Origin: Arthrobacter sp. MMS18-M83
GTDB taxonomy: Bacteria; Actinomycetota; Actinomycetes; Actinomycetales; Micrococcaceae
DNA length: 64,000 bases
NCBI RefSeq assembly: GCF_026683955.1
Contig: NZ_CP113343.1
Span: 1,922,001-1,986,000 of the forward strand
Reading direction: 5' to 3'
In this document: in pieces, positions 46,156 to 55,496 of the stretch
How the letters are laid out: every line of letters starts with the position of its first letter
Numbering within the stretch: position 1 is the stretch's first letter
Notes under the pieces: generated by a model
Told to the model about the DNA's origin: nothing
Database searches by the model: none
Seen by the model: only the letters and a program-made list of their open reading frames with translations
Position numbers and translations under genes: made by a program

Positions 46156-46782
46156 ATGGCCAAGACCCCTGCCCAACGCATCAAGAAACACGGCGCCAAC
46201 GCTGCCGTCCCGCAGCACCACTTGCCGTCAGTGGTCAATCCCACCACGCAGCGGTCCCCCGAGAAAGCACAAAGCAACGCGAAGCTCGTGGTGATCGCCG
46301 GGGTCGTGGCCAGCCTTTTGCTGTTCTGGTACGTGCATCTCCTGACCCTCAACCAGATGACCCAGTTGTCGGGCGGCATGGCCATGCCTGATTCCCTCAT
46401 TGGCGGATTCTCCACGGATTACATCCAGCAGTTGCACTCCGCGATGAACGATGACGCCCGTGGCCAGCTCAGCTACATCCACAAAACCGCGGGAACCCTT
46501 TTTCCGCTGATCTTCGGCTTCACCTGGCTTCTGCTCATCGGCACCAACGTGGCCGGCAAGGCACTGCGTTGGATTCTGTGGGCGGCTCCCCTGCTGTTCG
46601 CGGTGGTCCGGTTGTGGAGCAACGTTGCGGTTGACGCTGCGCTGGGATCGGCCGTGCCCGACGCCGGACAGGTGGCTTTGGCGTCCATGCTCACTGTCTT
46701 GGGCTGGGTGCTTTTCCTGCTAAGCATTTTTGCTGGCGGCGCGGCTGTGTTTATGGGGCGTCGGCGTTCAACGAGCGCCTGA
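46156..46782 (+). CDS. membrane protein of unknown function
   Basis: 208 residues: a basic, proline-rich cytoplasmic N-terminus (MAKTPAQRIKKHGAN), then four predicted helices (about 44-63, 118-136, 140-160 and 175-200) with a longer extracellular loop between the first two. No family recognised. The 3' end overlaps the converging DUF998 gene by 32 bases. There is no good ribosome site at ATG 46156, so expression may be low. Confidence 0.7.
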   Translation: MAKTPAQRIKKHGANAAVPQHHLPSVVNPTTQRSPEKAQSNAKLVVIAGVVASLLLFWYVHLLTLNQMTQLSGGMAMPDSLIGGFSTDYIQQLHSAMNDDARGQLSYIHKTAGTLFPLIFGFTWLLLIGTNVAGKALRWILWAAPLLFAVVRLWSNVAVDAALGSAVPDAGQVALASMLTVLGWVLFLLSIFAGGAAVFMGRRRSTSA

Positions 46783-47539
46783 CGATCCTGCGTTCCCGAT
46801 GCACTCGCTGCGCCACCACCAGGCCAACGAGCGAGAGCCCGAGGATGATCGGGTAGGCCATGGTTCGTTCGATGGCGCCGGGCTCGTCCACGCGCAGCGC
46901 CGAAGCAAGGACAAAAATCGTTGCGCCCGAGGACACCACACCGAAGAGCAGCACCATCCAGGACATCGTGGTCCGTCGCAGCCATACCAGGCCCAGCAAT
47001 GCCAGTGCCAGCGGTCCCGCAATGAAATACAGCCCCGCTCCCGTCAAGTGCCAAGCCAGCGCAGTGTCCTCCGGAACCAGTCCCACGATGGTTTGGCCGA
47101 TGCCGGCCACCAGCACCAGTACGCGCACAGCACAGGCAGCAAGCCACGGTACCTTTCCGGGGCCGGAACGGACGTATCGCTGCCCCGGTTGCGCAGCCAC
47201 GGACAACACCGCCGAGCTCAGCAGCACGGCACCTAGCACCATGGCAAGGCCTTGCAGGACGAAGGAGGCGTTCATGAGCCAGTTCAGTGGCGAACAGACC
47301 TCGTGGCCGTTGAACTGCCCGCACTTGGCTGCGCCGAGGTCGCTGATGACATAGGCGCGGCGATCGTAGCCAGGAGTGCCTTGCCAAGCGGCCATGGCGG
47401 CGGCTTCAACAATGAAGTAGTGGATGAGGCTGAGGGAGGCCCATGCCCCCACCAGCTCGCGTCTTCCGGCGATGTCCGGGAGCAAACCACGTTCTTCGGA
47501 CAAAGGGTTCCCGGCCCGCGGGGGGCCCGCCGTCGTCAT
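46751..47539 (-). CDS. DUF998-type integral membrane protein (paralog 1)
   Basis: 262 residues with six or seven helices. Shared with the paralog at 51469: AYDRR/GYDRR followed by ISDLGA, a conserved Cys pair (CGQFNGHEVCSPLNWLMNASF) and LQGLAMVLGAVLLSSA. AMAYPIILGLSLVG lies near the C-terminus. The pattern fits the DUF998 family, whose function is unknown. It overlaps the converging upstream gene's 3' end. The two Cys, predicted outside, may form a disulfide. Confidence 0.8.
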   Translation of the reverse strand: MTTAGPPRAGNPLSEERGLLPDIAGRRELVGAWASLSLIHYFIVEAAAMAAWQGTPGYDRRAYVISDLGAAKCGQFNGHEVCSPLNWLMNASFVLQGLAMVLGAVLLSSAVLSVAAQPGQRYVRSGPGKVPWLAACAVRVLVLVAGIGQTIVGLVPEDTALAWHLTGAGLYFIAGPLALALLGLVWLRRTTMSWMVLLFGVVSSGATIFVLASALRVDEPGAIERTMAYPIILGLSLVGLVVAQRVHRERRIVRRSLNADAP

Positions 47540-47625: not shown

Positions 47626-48666
47626 TTACTCCTGTTCCGGACCGGTTTCCGGGGCTAGCATCTCCCGGGCTTGGAGCGCACGCTGGTGGGCGCCGGCTTT
47701 GTCGAATCGGTCAGCCGCTTCGAGCAGGCTTTCCCTTGCTGACTGCTTGCTCCCGGTATCGGCTTGGGCACGGGCCATTAAGAGGAATATTTCGCCTGCC
47801 ATCTGCGGTGGCAGTTGGTCGGCACGGCCCCTGAGTTCGTCCAGCAACTCGATTGCCGCGCCGGCGTCGCCCGCGAGGTAGGTCCAATGCGCGCGGTTGA
47901 GCCGAAGCAGGAGAATTTCCTCTTCGTTGCCGCCCACCACATCCGTGGCAAGCTCCGCCCGTTCAATGCACCGCAGGGTGGCGGCATCTGCCACTTCGGC
48001 GGCCAGCCTCATCGCTGCCGATGCCTTGTTGAATTTGGCCCAGACATCAAGGTTCCGGGAAGGGGAAAAGGTTTCCGCTGCAAGCTCATGGTAGTGGAGC
48101 CCTTCATCGACCTTGTCGCAAAGGAAGGCCACATTGCCGATCACCCAGTACGCCTTGCCGGCTAGCTGGTCATCCATTTCATCGGAGATTCTTGCCGAGA
48201 GGGACAAGCACTCCTCCCAGGCCTCCTCCAGCTTGCCGGACTCGCCAAACGCGGCAATCAGTGCCTGCCTGGCATGGACGTCGATTTCCATGTCGGCGTC
48301 ATCATCGACCAGTCCAACTGCCGACGCCGCAGCCGAGGTGGCTATCTCAAGGAGCCCTTCACCCCGCAGGGAATTCGCCATCAAAATGAGTGCCCGGGCC
48401 CGGTGTTGGGGTGAAGCCGCAGCCAACGATGCCTCAAAAAGGGACCTCGCCAGCTCAGTGCTCGCAGCGAAATCACCTGCGTCGAGCAGATTCTCCGCTT
48501 GAAGGAAAGTCATGTTCCACCACCCGGTGGAATCGCCCTCATCAAGGGCAATATCAGCGGCCGAGCGCGCACCATCGGCGGCCTTAGCGAAGTCGTGGCT
48601 GGCCCGGTGCCCCCTCGCCTGCAGTTCAGCGGCGGCGTACGACGGCGCAACCTTCTTTTCTCCCAT
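47626..48666 (-). CDS. tetratricopeptide-repeat-like cytoplasmic protein
   Basis: 346 residues, nearly all helical, no signal peptide or membrane segment. Alternating helices such as GWWNMTFLQAENLLDAGDFAAS, HRARALILMANSLRGEGLLE and GEIFLLMARAQADTGSKQSA have the spacing of TPR repeats across the whole length. There is no DNA-binding domain. ATG 48666 is used; a GTG-type extension to 48690 is unlikely. It is divergent from the GWWPN-repeat peptide gene, 170 bases away. TPR proteins of this shape often bind short peptides, as in the RRNPP receptors of Firmicutes. A receptor role is a hypothesis. It contains TGWWN at residues 47-51. Confidence 0.75.
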   Translation of the reverse strand: MGEKKVAPSYAAAELQARGHRASHDFAKAADGARSAADIALDEGDSTGWWNMTFLQAENLLDAGDFAASTELARSLFEASLAAASPQHRARALILMANSLRGEGLLEIATSAAASAVGLVDDDADMEIDVHARQALIAAFGESGKLEEAWEECLSLSARISDEMDDQLAGKAYWVIGNVAFLCDKVDEGLHYHELAAETFSPSRNLDVWAKFNKASAAMRLAAEVADAATLRCIERAELATDVVGGNEEEILLLRLNRAHWTYLAGDAGAAIELLDELRGRADQLPPQMAGEIFLLMARAQADTGSKQSARESLLEAADRFDKAGAHQRALQAREMLAPETGPEQE

Positions 48667-48676
48667 GGGTCCATTA

Positions 48677-48689
48677 TGTCTCTGAGACA
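48677..48689. promoter_or_regulatory. short palindrome before the TPR gene
   Basis: TGTCTCTGAGACA is a 13-base inverted repeat with one central base, 10 bases upstream of the TPR start and 60 bases from the -35 of the divergent peptide gene. It could be an operator. Confidence 0.35.
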
Positions 48690-48748
48690 CTCCGCCGATG
48701 ATTCAGGCGAGCGTTTAGCATGTTTCTGTACCGCGCGGACGAACACTG

Positions 48749-48777
48749 ATGACACGGCGTGTCGCTACTCTTATAAT
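48749..48777 (+). promoter_or_regulatory. near-consensus promoter of the GWWPN peptide gene
   Basis: ATGACA (48749-48754), exactly 17 bases, then a perfect TATAAT (48772-48777). One of the strongest promoters visible in the window, 60 bases before the ATG. Confidence 0.8.
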
Positions 48778-48836
48778 GAGCATGCTTCACTTCGTTCACT
48801 CCAGTCGCATCAGTCACTCATATCAGGAGCTTCCGC

Positions 48837-49163
48837 ATGAAAAGAACTATCGCCGCTCTCCTCGCTGCCGCAGCAATCTTGCTTGCCGGAATTTCCGGCT
48901 CGGCAGCCGTTTCCGCAAGCAGCGAGAGTCCCTCAAACGACTCGTCCATAGCCACTGGCTGGTGGCCGAACTTCGCCCACAACTCGACGGAAGCCACTGG
49001 CTGGTGGCCCAACTTCGCCCAGAACTCGGCAGAAGCCACTGGCTGGTGGCCCAACGCCGCAACCCAGGGTTCGGCCCAGGCCGTTGGCTGGTGGCCCAAC
49101 TCCACCACTCAGGGTTCGCCTCAGGCCACCGGCTGGTGGCCCAACTCCACCCCGTCCAACTAG
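48837..49163 (+). CDS. secreted protein made of five GWWPN tandem repeats
   Basis: 108 residues, no family recognised. A Sec signal peptide (MKRTIAALLAAAAILLAGIS, cleavage likely after VSA at residue 27) is followed by a mature chain of about 80 residues. GWWPN occurs at 41-45, 55-59, 69-73, 84-88 and 99-103, with periods of 14, 14, 15 and 15. Each is preceded by AT or AV and followed by polar linkers rich in Asn, Ser, Thr and Gln. There are no Cys and, after the signal, only acidic residues and one His. A near-consensus promoter, AGGAG seven bases before ATG, and a strong terminator show a real, well-expressed monocistronic gene. It could be a multi-copy peptide signal precursor, or a cell-wall or polysaccharide-binding protein; sequence does not decide. 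Confidence 0.88.
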   Translation: MKRTIAALLAAAAILLAGISGSAAVSASSESPSNDSSIATGWWPNFAHNSTEATGWWPNFAQNSAEATGWWPNAATQGSAQAVGWWPNSTTQGSPQATGWWPNSTPSN

Positions 49164-49170
49164 CAATACC

Positions 49171-49204
49171 TGAAAGGCACCGGACCAAGGTCCGGTGCCT
49201 TTCA
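49171..49204. terminator. bidirectional terminator after the GWWPN peptide gene
   Basis: TGAAAGGCACCGGACC and GGTCCGGTGCCTTTCA form a perfect 16-bp palindrome with an AA centre, so each strand ends in CCTTTCA. It separates the peptide gene from the converging GGDEF-EAL gene. Confidence 0.8.
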
Positions 49205-49234
49205 GTTGCCGCTTAGTTGCCGCCGCAACTCCGC

Positions 49235-50755
49235 TCAGGCGCCGCGCAGCAGTTCCGCGAATTTCTCCGGTGGCATGGGCCGGCCGAAGTAGTACCCCTG
49301 GCCGCTGGCACAACCGAGACGGGAAAGCTCAGCCGCTTGGTCTGCCGTTTCGATACCCTCAGCAACCGCCTGCATTCCGCAGGCGTGGATGAGCTGAAGA
49401 ACCGCCGCCACAAAGTCACGTTCCTTGTCGTCCGTGCCCAAGCCCTGGATCAGGGACCGGTCAATCTTGACCACGTTGACCGGGAGGTTGCGTAGATAGC
49501 TGATGGACGAATAGCCAGTGCCGAAATCATCAATCTCCAAGCGGATCCCCAGGCGCCGGAGGCCGGTCAGCGAGTATTTGTCGATATCGCTGCCGTTCAG
49601 GGCCATCGACTCCGTGAGTTCGATGACCAGCCTGGCTGCTTCCACTCCGGTCTCGGCGAGCACTTCCCGCACATGCTCGATCAAGTCGAGGCTTTGAAGT
49701 TCAGTTGTTGAAATATTGACCCGCATGCTGAAGTCTTCTTCCACCCCCGGGCCGTCCTGCCACTCGCGCAATTGCCGCATCGCTTGGCGAAGGACCCAAT
49801 AGCCCAGATCGATGATGATGCCGGTTTCCTCGGCCAACGGAATGAACGCATCCGGCATCAGCAATCCCCTGTCGGGGTGGTTCCACCGCACCAGCGCTTC
49901 CGCGCCTTCAATCCGGCCCGAGCTCAACTCGACAACAGGCTGGTAGTAGAGGACCAACTGATCTGTCCGGATGGCTTCACGCAGCTCCGAGATCATGAGG
50001 CCTTGGAGTCGGCGTGCGTACAACAAGGCGGGCTCGAAGACCCTCACAGTGCTCCGCTGCTCGGCCTTGGCCGCATACATCGCCGTATCGGCTTCCATCA
50101 CGAGGTCGTCCACTGACTGCCCAGGTTCGCCAACCGTGAGCCCGATGCTTGTTCCGCAGATGATCCGCACTTCGCCAATTTCGATGCTCTCGCCCACTGC
50201 CCGGAGGATCCGTTTGGCCACTCCGCGCGCGTGCGCCGCGTTGGATTTTGGCAGCATGACGGCAAACTCGTCCCCGCCGAGCCTGGCCACCGTGTCTCCT
50301 TCGCGGACCGCCGCGAGCAAGCGATTGGCGGTGACCTGCAGAACAGTGTCGCCGGCACCGTGCCCCAGGGTGTCGTTGATGCCCTTGAACGAGTTCAGGT
50401 CCAAGACGAGCAATGCGGGTGGAAGTTCTCCCCGTTCGGACTCCGCCAGCTCGTGGCTCAGTGCCCTGTTGAGGGCAGTGCGGTTGGCCAGCTGGGTCAG
50501 TGGATCTGTGAGGGCCATCCTCTCGAGTTCGATTTGGGCCTCGCGCAGCATGGCTGTGCGGTTTTCGACCCGGTCCTCGAGTTCCTGGTAGATGGCTTGA
50601 AGATCGTCCGCCATGAGGTTGATGCCGGTAATGACGGCAGCCACTTCGTCTCGCGGACCCGAGACCGGGATCCGTGTGCTGAGGTCGCCGTCCGCAATCC
50701 GGGCTACCCCTTCAACGAGGGCAAGGAGTCGTGGATCCTGGGGCTCATGATTCAC
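49235..50755 (-). CDS. GGDEF-EAL cyclic-di-GMP turnover protein
   Basis: 506 residues: a short HAMP-like/coiled region (about 10-80; DGDLSTRIPVSGPRDEVAAV), a GGDEF domain (80-240) with intact RLGGDEF at 158-164, and an EAL domain (about 255-500) with EGAEALVRW, NISTTELQ, ELTES, DDFGTGYSS and KIDRSLI. Both catalytic signatures are complete, so synthesis and hydrolysis are both possible. No membrane helix is predicted. The GTG start at 50755 overlaps the end of the STAS-like gene by 11 bases, so the two are coupled. A PilZ-tailed glycan synthase 3 kb away is a likely target of the signal. Confidence 0.92.
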   Translation of the reverse strand: MNHEPQDPRLLALVEGVARIADGDLSTRIPVSGPRDEVAAVITGINLMADDLQAIYQELEDRVENRTAMLREAQIELERMALTDPLTQLANRTALNRALSHELAESERGELPPALLVLDLNSFKGINDTLGHGAGDTVLQVTANRLLAAVREGDTVARLGGDEFAVMLPKSNAAHARGVAKRILRAVGESIEIGEVRIICGTSIGLTVGEPGQSVDDLVMEADTAMYAAKAEQRSTVRVFEPALLYARRLQGLMISELREAIRTDQLVLYYQPVVELSSGRIEGAEALVRWNHPDRGLLMPDAFIPLAEETGIIIDLGYWVLRQAMRQLREWQDGPGVEEDFSMRVNISTTELQSLDLIEHVREVLAETGVEAARLVIELTESMALNGSDIDKYSLTGLRRLGIRLEIDDFGTGYSSISYLRNLPVNVVKIDRSLIQGLGTDDKERDFVAAVLQLIHACGMQAVAEGIETADQAAELSRLGCASGQGYYFGRPMPPEKFAELLRGA

Positions 50756-51191
50756 GGTGGCGCTCTCTCAGCCAGTCGCGGGCTTCCGCCTCGGAGGTGA
50801 AGAACCGCGCCGGAACTGATTCCGGCTTTGCGCGAAGGAGGTAGTGCGCGATCACCCGATCGACGGGGCTTTCCCCCAGCAAGGCACATGCCGAAACAAA
50901 CACTGAATTCGTGTAAGCCAGGCGCGCCTCGTTCGTCACTGACAGCACTCCGGTCACCGTCAGCAGCAGTGGCAGCCTCCGTCCTTCCGCAAAAGCCCGG
51001 ACGGCCGCGGCGGCAGCCCGGGCCTCCGGCGAGCGGACCACGGTGTTGGGCGGCAGGGTGACCTCAACGATGCCGTCTTGCGACAAGTCGACCGTGATCT
51101 GTTCCGTAACACCGAAGACCGTTTCCGAAGAAACATGAAGCGCACCATCGGGAAGCCGGGATTCCTGGGCAGGCAGGGTCTGGGCGCTCAT
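50745..51191 (-). CDS. STAS/SpoIIAA-like small protein coupled to the GGDEF-EAL gene
   Basis: 148 residues with the alternating strand-helix layout of STAS-like proteins: ITVDLSQDGIVEVTLPPN, RRLPLLLTVTGVLSVTNEAR and the C-terminal FFTSEAEARDWLRER, which ends like many SpoIIAA-like domains. I do not recognise a characterised member. ATG 51191 (MSAQTLP) is used; an open extension upstream lacks features. Its translation is linked to the c-di-GMP gene, so a sensing or partner role for that protein is plausible. The 51192-51468 gap behind it shows no clear gene. Confidence 0.7.
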   Translation of the reverse strand: MSAQTLPAQESRLPDGALHVSSETVFGVTEQITVDLSQDGIVEVTLPPNTVVRSPEARAAAAAVRAFAEGRRLPLLLTVTGVLSVTNEARLAYTNSVFVSACALLGESPVDRVIAHYLLRAKPESVPARFFTSEAEARDWLRERHRES

Positions 51192-51468
51192 CGCTGTGTG
51201 GCCCGCCGGCGTCGGGCAATCAGCCCGCGAAGGTCCTGAAAGGCACGAACCAGGAGGTAGGATGTTTCCTTTATGGGAAATATGAAGCCTGCGTGTCCCG
51301 TGCGACGCAGAACAAGCTGATGAGTCATGGGTCCTAGGTTCTGCCGTGTCGATCAATCTAGTTCAGCGCCAAGCTGCGTGGAACCCTCAGCCCGGCGCCA
51401 TTCCGGTGAGTGCACTCATGATAATGCACAGACTGCCCTCCCATTGACATGAGGCTACCCCTGAAAAG

Positions 51469-52221
51469 TCAGCGTCTTGCAAACCGCGCCGCTGTCCGTC
51501 GTACTTCCCGGACCCGTTGCGCCACCACCAGCCCCGCAGCGCAAAATCCGACGGTGATCGGATAGGCCATCAGGCGTTCCAAGGTTCCGGGTTCCGGGAC
51601 ATCCATCCGGGTCAGGCCGCCCACCACGAGGGCGCCCAGCGACACCGTTCCAGCCACGAGAATGAACCAACTCATGGGCGTATGCGGCAGCCAGAGCAGC
51701 CCGAGGAGCAACAGGGCGAACGCTCCGCCGATGAAGAACATGAGTGCGCCAACAAGATGCAAGGGAGACCTGAGGTCTTCCGGCACACACCCGACAATGA
51801 CAGTTCCCAGCCCGGAGATGCCCGTGAAAACGCGGACCGCGACGGCGGACGTCCACGCTTTGCGATAGGCGGCGCCTTGCTGGATCCGCACACCGGGACG
51901 GGCCGCTATACACAGGAGCGCGGAGCTGAGCAGCAGCGCCCCAAACAGCATTCCAAGGCCCTGCACCACAAAGGACGCATTCATGAGCAGATGGAGCGGC
52001 GAACAGATGTCACGGTGCTCGTAGATCCCGCAGTTGATGGCGCCAAGGTCGCTGATGAAACCAGTCCGGCGATCGTACGCCTCGGGCCCGCGCCAGGCTT
52101 CGATCACTGCCGATTCGGCCACGAAATACTGCACCACGCTCAACTGCGCCCAGCCGCCAATGATCGATCGGGTCGAGGCCAGGTCCGGCAGGTAGTCGCC
52201 GGGGGCGGCCGGCACCGTCAT
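51469..52221 (-). CDS. DUF998-type integral membrane protein (paralog 2)
   Basis: 250 residues, similar over its whole length to the protein encoded at 46751: EAYDRRTGFISDLGAINCGI, DICSPLHLLMNASFVVQGLG and a C-terminal LMAYPITVGFCAAGLVVAQR. Both keep the Cys pair spaced around the second loop. ATG 52221 has GGAGA close upstream; ATG 52233 is an alternative. The two paralogs bracket the TPR, peptide and c-di-GMP genes. Function unknown. Confidence 0.8.
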   Translation of the reverse strand: MTVPAAPGDYLPDLASTRSIIGGWAQLSVVQYFVAESAVIEAWRGPEAYDRRTGFISDLGAINCGIYEHRDICSPLHLLMNASFVVQGLGMLFGALLLSSALLCIAARPGVRIQQGAAYRKAWTSAVAVRVFTGISGLGTVIVGCVPEDLRSPLHLVGALMFFIGGAFALLLLGLLWLPHTPMSWFILVAGTVSLGALVVGGLTRMDVPEPGTLERLMAYPITVGFCAAGLVVAQRVREVRRTAARFARR

Positions 52222-52360
52222 CTGATCTCCCATGCGGGCCAGCCTAGCGGCACATACGGAGAGGCGACGGTTTGTCGGTGTTCGAGGGCTGCCCCGGCAG
52301 CTTGTATGCTTGTATGCGTGCCCGGCCAGCGGCTCCCAGGAGCTTCCGGCACGCGCACAG

Positions 52361-53450: not shown

Positions 53451-55496
53451 ATGCAATCTATTGTTCAGCGCCGGCGCGCCGCTGAAGACGGGCGCGCCGC
53501 TGAAGACGGGCGCGCCACTGAAGAGCCCGGTGGAGAACGGACAAAGTTCCGTGACACTCCACGCGAGGTCAGGGCCTACTCGGCTGCGGGAATCGCCGCT
53601 TGGGCGGCGCAACTGGGTCCCCCCGCGCCGGAGGCTCCGCGTTCCCGCAGAATGGCGAGGACCGGCGGCTTAGTTTCGATCGCGGCTTTGTTGCTCTACC
53701 TGACGTGGCGTATCTCGTTCACCATGCCGCTTGGTGGCTGGGACCATGTCATCGCTTGGACGCTGGTGACGTTTGAGGCCCTCCCCCTTGTGGGGCTCGT
53801 CCTGAAGTCCATCACGCTGTGGAACATCGATTGTCATGCCCCGGAGCCGGTAGCCGAACCGCCCAATGGCATGAGGGTCGCCGTGTTGATCCCCACGTAC
53901 AACGAACCGGTGGAGGTCCTTGCCCCCACGATCGCCGCGGCCTGCGCCCTTCAACCGAACCACGAGACATGGGTGTTGGATGACGGATCCCGCCCGTGGG
54001 TTGACGAGATGTGCGCGTCCTTCGGCGCGCGCTTTGTAACCCGCACCGAGCATGATCATGCCAAGGCGGGCAACATGAACCACGCGCTGGATCTGATGGC
54101 CGCCGAGGAAGCCGCCGGCAAAGACCCAATCGACATCATTGCCGTGCTGGACTGCGACCACGTACCCCTCCCGACATTCCTGACGGCCACCTTGGGCTGG
54201 TTCGCCGACGAGGAAATCGCCCTTGTCCAAGGGCCGCAGGCGTTCTATAACTCCGGAGCCTTCGACGACGACGGAATCTCCGGCGAGCAGGGGCTGTTCT
54301 TCAACGTCCTCATGCCCTCACGCAACGTTCCCGGCGCGGGGCCTTTCTGGTGCGGGTCAACATCCTTGCTCCGCGTCAAGGCACTTCGTGAGGTAGGTGG
54401 TGTAGCCACCGAAACCATCACCGAGGACATGCACACCACCCTCAAGCTCATCCGGATCGGGCGGAAGACCGTGTACCACCACCAAACCCTGGCAGTGGGC
54501 CTGGCCCCGGCAACGGCCGATCAGTACCTGCTGCAACGCCGCCGTTGGGGCATGGGCGCGATGCAGATCCTTACTTACGAGCGCCTGTGGGCCGCCAAGA
54601 GCTGGATGACCTGGCGGAACTTCCAGGAATACATCAACGGAACCTTATGGTGGCTGGAAGGCATTGCTACCCTGATTGCGTTCATTATTCCGATGGCGGT
54701 GATGATCTCAGGAGCCCAGACCTCGACCGCCGGCCCCGTGGAGTTCACCCTCGCCTTTGGAGCCATGTTCTGGGTCCGTTTGTGGGGCGCAAAAAGACTC
54801 ATGCGCCACCAGATCCACTGGCCGACGGCGTTCGCCCTGCGGATCTTCCGGGTCCCGGTTGGCATGGCCTGCCTCTGGTGGCTCGTCTCGCGCAAGACCC
54901 TCGAGTTCCAAGTCACTCCCAAAGGCGCTGCAGAGCTTCGACTCCGCGGGCGTGCCCCGTGGGTCCTCCTTGTGTTGATCTTCATCGTGGCCGGGATCAT
55001 TCTCTACGCAGCCGCGGGAGTCCTGGGATGGGTGCCCTGGCGGACAAGTCCGGGCTCCACTATTGCCGCCGGCGTGTGGCTGGTGTTGGCCGGAGTGGTC
55101 CTCGTTCTGGGAACGCTCCGGATCCGAGCCGCCGAATTCGCCACATCACGAAGGAACGCCCACCGGGCCACCATCAACATACCCGTCACGGTTGAGGGTG
55201 TCCCTGGCGAATTGCTTGATATCTCCATGGGTGGCGCCGCAGTTCAAGTGGAGGCCGACGCGCTGCCGGAGGCTGGCCGCGTTCACCTGGCGCTGCCGGG
55301 GGCCAAACCGATTGCCTTGGACATCGTTCGGGTCTGGTCCACGTCAAGGAACGGCCGCACGGCGTCACTGCAGGTTCACGACGGCGACTGGAACGCCTAT
55401 CGAAGCCTCGCACTCTGGCTTTTCCACACTCCCGATAATGTGTTGCCCGGCTTTCCTCCCGGCGTTCCTGCCATCGCAACTCGGGAGTCAGCATGA
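53451..55496 (+). CDS. family 2 glycan synthase with PilZ domain (cellulose-synthase-like)
   Basis: 681-residue membrane glycosyltransferase that polymerises and exports a polysaccharide. The GT2 domain shows WVLDDGSR (about residue 173), VLDCDHVP (233), TED (324) and QRRRW (about 361), the processive synthase set. Six to eight helices flank it. The C-terminal PilZ domain (about 560-660) has the c-di-GMP signature RNAHR and DISMGG. The N-terminus has three RAAEDG-type repeats encoded by an 18-bp tandem repeat. GGGGGA precedes ATG 53451. The next gene overlaps by four bases. No bcsB-like partner is seen, so the product may not be cellulose. Confidence 0.9.
   Translation: MQSIVQRRRAAEDGRAAEDGRATEEPGGERTKFRDTPREVRAYSAAGIAAWAAQLGPPAPEAPRSRRMARTGGLVSIAALLLYLTWRISFTMPLGGWDHVIAWTLVTFEALPLVGLVLKSITLWNIDCHAPEPVAEPPNGMRVAVLIPTYNEPVEVLAPTIAAACALQPNHETWVLDDGSRPWVDEMCASFGARFVTRTEHDHAKAGNMNHALDLMAAEEAAGKDPIDIIAVLDCDHVPLPTFLTATLGWFADEEIALVQGPQAFYNSGAFDDDGISGEQGLFFNVLMPSRNVPGAGPFWCGSTSLLRVKALREVGGVATETITEDMHTTLKLIRIGRKTVYHHQTLAVGLAPATADQYLLQRRRWGMGAMQILTYERLWAAKSWMTWRNFQEYINGTLWWLEGIATLIAFIIPMAVMISGAQTSTAGPVEFTLAFGAMFWVRLWGAKRLMRHQIHWPTAFALRIFRVPVGMACLWWLVSRKTLEFQVTPKGAAELRLRGRAPWVLLVLIFIVAGIILYAAAGVLGWVPWRTSPGSTIAAGVWLVLAGVVLVLGTLRIRAAEFATSRRNAHRATINIPVTVEGVPGELLDISMGGAAVQVEADALPEAGRVHLALPGAKPIALDIVRVWSTSRNGRTASLQVHDGDWNAYRSLALWLFHTPDNVLPGFPPGVPAIATRESA
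53471..53524 (+). repeat. 18-bp tandem repeat in the glycan synthase N-terminus
   Basis: CGCGCCGCTGAAGACGGG occurs about three times and encodes RAAEDG-RAAEDG-RATEEP. It is in phase with the codons, so copy-number change would keep the frame. Confidence 0.7.

Follow-up and report, generated by a model that had tools for sequence, protein, structure and literature searches.

Peptide-signalling systems of the RRNPP type combine a receptor of 250–500 amino acids (aa), whose tetratricopeptide repeats (TPRs) are detected by hidden Markov models (HMMs) and which carries a helix-turn-helix (HTH) domain in all cases but Rap, with an adjacent precursor gene. The precursors have a Sec signal peptide, except for the Rgg/PrgX-type and leaderless ones, and the mature peptide is re-imported by the oligopeptide permease and bound in the TPR groove. 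Such signalling has so far been described mainly in Bacillota, their phages and plasmids, and Actinobacteria are usually credited with small molecules. Passages of PMC10075063 describe an RRNPP survey of 7,974 Firmicutes and 47,982 virus genomes, and passages there and in PMC13220807 name gamma-butyrolactones as the usual quorum-sensing type of Actinobacteria. The open-access full-text literature, taken without bioRxiv or subscription papers, contained no description of Trp-Pro (W-P) peptides or of actinobacterial RRNPP systems. Here we describe two divergent genes of Arthrobacter sp. MMS18-M83, located in a 64,000-nucleotide stretch of contig NZ_CP113343.1 (the window), which encode a small precursor with five GWWPN units and a TPR protein. 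The two genes are likely to form an RRNPP-like module of Actinomycetota for intracellular peptide-receptor signalling, in which a processed and re-imported peptide acts via the TPR receptor.

The precursor gene and its TPR neighbor

The two genes and their parts are located in the window as follows (nt, nucleotides; ORF, open reading frame).
48837–49163, plus strand: propeptide gene, 108 aa, with an apparent signal peptide and five GWWPN units (from the ORF and its homologs).
48957–49145, plus strand: repeat region with five GWWPN codon runs (48957–48971, 48999–49013, 49041–49055, 49086–49100 and 49131–49145).
48825–48829, plus strand: ribosome-binding site AGGAG, 7 nt before the ATG, conserved in intergenic alignments.
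47626–48666, minus strand: TPR protein, 346 aa, a putative peptide receptor lacking an HTH, with an alternative GTG start at 48690.

By visual inspection and a hydrophobicity rule, the precursor N-terminus, MKRTIAALLAAAAILLAGISGSAAVSAS, is shaped like a Sec signal peptide. The GWWPN runs start 42–45 nt, or 14–15 aa, apart, and GGNTGGTGGCCNAAY gave five matches in the window versus none in 100 shuffles. The ORF of the TPR protein spans 47626–48690 on the minus strand, and alignment to homologs makes the ATG at 48666 the likelier start. Its own Pfam matches were weak and below the cut-off, and Pfam found no HTH. An AlphaFold2 model was a TPR superhelix (pLDDT 92.6), backed by fold matches, in which TPR helices begin at residue 8 and form about eight TPR pairs with no N-terminal bundle. 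Thus, an earlier note on this DNA, which had read a signal peptide, five GWWPN units with a period of 14–15 residues and an all-helical, TPR-like divergent neighbor without a DNA-binding domain, was correct on each of these points.

Occurrence of the gene pair

A peptide gene frequently found without the TPR gene would have spoken against the proposed pairing. All 40 loci fetched around peptide genes, which were hand-picked from precursor matches and not random, had a TPR homolog divergent to the peptide. Because peptide-based loci would be circular, a receptor-based search was used, and in the first such set 30 of 30 TPR genes found without the peptide had a divergent W-P peptide gene. The receptor is carried by at least 116 of 245 genomes of the family, assigned to Micrococcaceae through named relatives, in at least 17 of 32 genera; the genome searches scored the best first-look candidates per genome, so that such tallies are lower bounds. 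Among 152 non-redundant receptors (peptide-derived loci included, identical receptor cores collapsed, near-identical ones kept), a divergent W-P ORF was present within 800 nt in 135, and in 127 it had a signal peptide, called here and in the other family counts by the hydrophobicity rule only. Corresponding controls gave 28.8 (3.3 with a signal peptide) in Markov-shuffled upstream DNA and 31 (2) on the opposite strand.

The 103 receptor-derived loci had a divergent W-P ORF in 86 cases, 78 of them with a signal peptide, which bears out at the genome level the pairing that the earlier note had proposed from a single locus. For HTH-less receptors the count was 38 of 39, all 38 with a signal peptide, the lone exception (L127) being a frame-disrupted HTH-type receptor on the tree; for HTH-bearing receptors it was 48 of 64, with a signal peptide in 40 of the 64. 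Among the W-P ORFs, those at L152 and L212 resemble chance hits, and the one at L161 is uncertain. A receptor-pattern scan of named genomes found 320 relatives, the best 80 of which belong to Arthrobacter, Paenarthrobacter and Pseudarthrobacter; all of these 80 had a divergent signal-peptide W-P ORF, two of them doubtful and chance-like. Tandem double peptide-receptor pairs, each peptide with its own core, occur at L110 and L112. The pairing crosses genera, and it probably crosses the phylum.

Peptide family

A precursor search of 150 genomes of the same genus gave matches at E ≤ 0.01 in 78. Strong matches carry one to six core copies, and weak ones include paralogs and chance. Single-copy precursors are ~50 aa long, with ends such as AVGWWPNSTPKN, AVNWWPNSTPKN, AMEWWPNSTKK, APDWWPNSTTK and AVEYWPNSTPKN. 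In a second subfamily (55–57 aa) the C-terminus falls exactly on IGWWPN, and a third, with a member in the window's own genome (G000:C1:3174150-3174407, 85 aa), has four IGNWPDPM units, the last of them C-terminal. Over 133 receptor-peptide pairs the core takes the form [VI]-G-x-W-P-x in one to eight copies per precursor, and 42 of the 133 precursors stop exactly after the residue following Pro. Gly is found two positions before the conserved Trp in 105 of the 133 cores and Val or Ile three before it in 102, whereas position −1 has W in 58, N in 52 and other residues in the rest, so that the family does not conserve the first Trp of the pair seen in the window. These statistics cover 133 of the 152 receptors, those without an accepted peptide being excluded, and the Trp before Pro is imposed by the motif. 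Across 241 G[WN]WP[ND] cores, different codons are used for the invariant Gly and Pro residues, which fits selection on the peptide. The W-P core persists through changes in copy number, in the linkers and even in the signal peptide; loss of repeat conservation, which the earlier note had also listed as adverse to its proposal, was not what we found.

A repeated aromatic motif in a secreted protein for which Pfam, NCBIfam and PHROGs gave no domain match might instead indicate a structural role in the wall or glycan binding through Trp pairs, the TPR neighbor being incidental. We consider this highly improbable, as single-copy forms of ~50 aa and leaderless forms of 16–32 aa keep the core, the first Trp of the pair varies as described, and the divergent pairing with a cytoplasmic TPR protein is conserved in two receptor classes. 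As the principal explanation it was rejected because the one-copy and leaderless forms retain only the W-P core.

The leaderless precursors (L138, L150, L155, L157 and L164) have the core at or near the C-terminus and keep the same distance from the receptor, 113–132 nt. Together with the distant actinobacterial classes discussed below, in which the mature part would be only about 6–8 residues following a membrane segment, they make it conceivable that the receptor binds the peptide within the cell that produced it, as a report on export, growth or envelope state, or that the peptide ligand stays membrane-bound. However, a signal peptide is present in most Micrococcaceae precursors, multi-copy precursors whose linkers proteases can reach are hard to explain unless they are processed outside the cell, and leaderless peptides that signal between cells are known in Firmicutes, according to part of PMC10518010. 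Sensing within the producer is therefore an unlikely explanation compared with a peptide that is released and re-imported.

Two receptor classes

The window's genome contains a second pair, in which the precursor with four IGNWPDPM units lies beside an XRE-type HTH and TPR regulator of 428 aa. Its HTH matches (HTH_31, 2e-11; HTH_3, 7e-11) are both above the cut-off, and this HTH-bearing paralog also passes the TPR_12 cut-off. On the tree, the HTH-less receptors group in a single clade that branches from within the HTH-bearing ones; the HTH was lost once. Genome comparison thus supports the first reading and extends it to two receptor classes, one of which has the classical HTH-TPR layout known from RRNPP quorum-sensing regulators.

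Receptors at L155, L157 and L164 have a weak or degenerate HTH, are sister to the HTH-less clade and accompany leaderless peptides of 21–23 aa that end in VGNWPD or VGDWPD. It is possible that they are intermediates toward the HTH-less class. Covariation between peptide and receptor was seen at M219 and T262 for the residue before Trp, at K171 for that after Pro and at F66 for position −3 (z 2.7 to 4.4); since z ignores relatedness, it was not used as evidence.

Linkage to c-di-GMP genes

Two further genes of the window concern cyclic di-GMP (c-di-GMP).
49235–50755, minus strand: HAMP-GGDEF-EAL protein, candidate output (Pfam, linkage).
50745–51356, minus strand: DUF7793 protein; its gene runs into the start of the GGDEF-EAL gene, and the two occur together at most HTH-less loci.

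A GGDEF-EAL gene was found near 49 of 49 HTH-less receptors versus 0 of 11 HTH-receptor contexts examined. Within the same genus, 37 of 37 HTH-less loci had it in the 8–16 kb examined, 31 in one gene order and six in another (one of the 37, L069, is partial and at a contig end). In all 12 HTH-less contexts from other genera it was on the receptor's strand, with a DUF7793 gene adjoining in most, and five of these (L168–L171 and L175) had the order receptor, DUF7793, GGDEF-EAL. Because gene order is rearranged while proximity is kept, and only in the class without a DNA-binding domain, the GGDEF-EAL/DUF7793 module is, by linkage only, the best output candidate for HTH-less receptors. The earlier note had suggested that the c-di-GMP genes following the pair could be its output; the linkage held, and the output role is still hypothetical.

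Other genes are present nearby. The gene at 53451–55496 encodes a family 2 glycosyltransferase that also has a PilZ domain, in a BcsA-like layout, and could be a c-di-GMP effector near the locus; its close homologs were near the locus in the nearest relatives only. Two related DUF998 membrane protein genes (46751–47539 and 51469–52233) flank the locus, and homologs are nearby in most loci.

Candidate control elements

Three candidate elements accompany the precursor gene.
48749–48777, plus strand: promoter candidate ATGACA-17-TATAAT, 11/12 to consensus (scan; conserved in ten close relatives).
48756–48763, plus strand: GGCGTGTC element in the −35/−10 spacer, shared by most of the aligned HTH-less loci.
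49170–49205, no strand assigned: palindrome or hairpin with a 16-bp stem between convergent genes (−35.5 kcal/mol, z −7.9, by folding).

The promoter candidate was the sole match in the 4 kb scanned, where 0.7 would be expected by chance. Its support comes from conservation in ten close relatives (11/12 at L001, L004–L009 and L011–L013) and not from the scan score. As a general promoter of HTH-less loci, the near-consensus −35 was dropped, being confined to close relatives: only 33 of 84 such loci reach 9/12 or more. The −10 box lies 50–64 nt upstream of the start in most HTH-less loci listed. The GGCGTGTC element might be a regulator site. The hairpin has no clean U-tract and was absent from the terminator scan output; lying between two convergent genes, it is likely a terminator shared by both. 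Accordingly, where the earlier note had listed a near-consensus promoter, a ribosome site and a terminator, the ribosome site stands, the promoter stands as an 11/12 candidate and the terminator is only likely. A palindrome, TGTCTCTGAGACA, at 48677–48689, directly upstream of the TPR start codon, is partly conserved in near relatives.

HTH loci have a conserved 40-nt box, TTGACA..TGTGGA..ATTTTAC..TGTCAA, between the receptor and peptide genes. Its TTGACA, TTTAC and TGTCAA blocks were present in 21 of 21 aligned regions (chosen among near relatives from 48 HTH-class intergenic regions), and 76 of the 80 named loci have the whole pattern. With up to three mismatches allowed, it occurs a single time per genome in the four genomes searched. 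This suggests that the HTH receptor controls its own peptide gene.

Relatives outside the Micrococcaceae

HTH-TPR relatives outside the Micrococcaceae match the profile across the whole length. They were detected in another family of the same order, in at least 25 of 81 genomes of a family (f37) inferred from named relatives to be Streptomycetaceae, and in at least 23 of 198 genomes sampled over the phylum, own genus included. W-P peptides also accompany more distant HTH-TPR relatives in Streptomyces and in other actinobacterial classes. Among 59 loci outside the Micrococcaceae, left after removing second hits and loci that repeat one genomic place (L225–L227, L255–L257 and L277–L280), ten had a divergent ORF that combines a signal peptide and a ribosome site with a W-P close to its end; second-order Markov DNA gave 0.05 such ORFs and the opposite strand 0. 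The ends include NWPHVP, NWPHH, GWPRH, APWPHCC and DIGWPVPPAGA. Seven of the 59 end in Cys-Cys versus 0 in the control, a class noticed post hoc and with a control likewise post hoc. Divergent signal-peptide ORFs with the ends GAGGCC, AGSCC, GSGCC, GGGCC and PPECC stand beside HTH-TPR receptors at L243, L244, L247, L248 and L251 (all f37), and such ORFs are perhaps another signal type. Viral contigs (searched with two short patterns) and phage records gave no relative that would indicate a mobile origin, and the only plasmid relatives were two Streptomyces records, 25–27% identical.

Plasmid NZ_CP108097.1 of Streptomyces sp. NBC_00239 (L224, 199099–206064) carries a two-copy VEWP precursor and an HTH-TPR gene; a 54-aa hypothetical protein ending in VEWP is annotated ~2.3 kb from the latter. 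The pair adjoins acyl carrier protein, thioesterase and phosphopantetheinyl transferase genes, and peptide control of this biosynthetic cluster is possible. The same neighborhood, and the fact that small secreted Trp-rich peptides can be antimicrobial, might suggest that the peptide is an antimicrobial or modified natural product precursor, with the TPR protein as regulator or immunity factor. We give this very little credence: the query genes used revealed no modification or export genes recurring at the loci inspected, the peptide accompanies almost every HTH-less receptor and spans genera, whereas bacteriocins are patchy, and the receptor types are those of regulators.

Proposed signalling module

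In the RRNPP-like reading that we prefer, secretion, processing, import and binding of the peptide, and the direction and output of its effect, would be as follows. The small gene would yield a secreted precursor, from which signal peptidase and other proteases would release several short peptides around the core [V/I/T]-G-W-W-P-N. The peptide would re-enter through the oligopeptide permease and bind in the concave groove of the TPR receptor encoded by the divergent gene. HTH receptors would probably convert binding into transcription, first of their own peptide gene, and HTH-less receptors probably act by protein contact, most likely with the linked GGDEF-EAL or DUF7793 protein, and thereby on c-di-GMP.

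Two observations weigh against this reading or its wide extension. Under the filter used, 16 of 64 HTH-bearing receptors had no W-P ORF (one, L088, is a filter miss), and no convincing other divergent ORF was found at L127, L133, L141, L143, L147, L148, L151, L153, L154, L156, L160, L162, L195, L202, L210 and L214. At least 42 of the 59 distant loci also lacked such an ORF under the filters used; therefore, the extension is less complete than in Micrococcaceae. Still, we lean toward the view that Actinomycetota have their own branch of peptide-receptor quorum sensing over several classes including Streptomyces, with W-P signals (in Streptomycetaceae perhaps Cys-Cys-ending) and HTH receptors that would act on transcription, some beside biosynthetic genes, and that one Micrococcaceae lineage, having lost the HTH once, was rewired to GGDEF-EAL/DUF7793 for density control of c-di-GMP. 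If true, soil Arthrobacter relatives, and possibly Streptomyces, would have a simple gene-encoded, easily synthesized signal with a known partner, and the HTH-less class would show that loss of a receptor's DNA-binding domain has happened independently and would connect cell density directly to c-di-GMP.

Comparison with known peptide-signalling systems

The RRNPP precursor size is 50–120 aa in the relevant part of PMC11343458, and the default of RRNPP_detector is 10–100 aa in that of PMC10075063. The window precursor (108 aa) and the second one (85 aa) agree with such sizes; across the family, lengths are about 16–166 aa, and the leaderless and longest forms fall outside the limits. Both receptors (346 and 428 aa) are of RRNPP size, signal peptides accompany 127 of the 152 receptors by the hydrophobicity rule, and the precursor and receptor genes adjoin in all locus sets. 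The second receptor has an HTH and passes TPR_12; that of the window has no HTH, and its TPRs are sub-threshold in Pfam and form a superhelix in the model. The genome encodes 14 SBP_bac_5 oligopeptide-type binding proteins, which is compatible with re-import.

RRNPP systems with HTH-bearing receptors are represented by PlcR-PapR and NprR-NprX of the Bacillus cereus group. The second system resembles them in having an XRE HTH and TPR receptor (~400 aa) beside a small secreted precursor; the HTH receptor profile matches PlcR over the HTH and first TPRs, and the structural model of the receptor gave a whole-length match to NprR. It differs in belonging to Actinomycetota, in divergent gene order, in W-P cores that are often multi-copy, in an anchor Asn off the aligned column and in a TPR part that extends to about 415 residues. 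AimR-AimP (arbitrium) and RopB-SIP/LCP are unlike the present pair in peptide sequence and host phylum, and the searches used found no viral or phage relative. The gamma-butyrolactone signalling of Streptomyces involves a small molecule and an unrelated receptor, whereas here the signal is gene-encoded.

RapF has seven TPRs. The window receptor is similar to Rap-Phr systems in that an HTH-less TPR receptor adjoins a secreted precursor and presumably acts on a protein target. Strict membership faces two difficulties. The RNPP family is described as sharing a strictly conserved Asn (RapF Asn227) that peptide binding requires, and RapF has an N-terminal helical bundle before its TPRs (both from parts of PMC3601957). 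In our alignments the invariant Rap Asn is matched by Val242 of the HTH receptor (V175 in the window receptor), with a near-invariant Asn245 (window N178) three residues, or one turn, further on and a near-invariant Asn280 in the next TPR, and the window receptor starts directly with TPRs, the model showing no bundle. The HTH-receptor profile matched six plasmid Rap proteins (RapF not in the set) with only 61% probability over 142 columns and does not place the anchor Asn in the receptor, and single-sequence comparisons with Rap gave no usable match (2% and 16.5%). Because of the displaced Asn and the missing bundle we call the system RRNPP-like and do not claim strict membership. Tandem pheromone copies also occur in Rap systems, whose common targets are ComA and Spo0F (parts of PMC11343458), and the window receptor is linked to GGDEF-EAL instead. 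As Rap is derived from NprR-type receptors, in the account given in part of PMC10075063, so was the HTH-less class described here derived once from HTH-bearing relatives.
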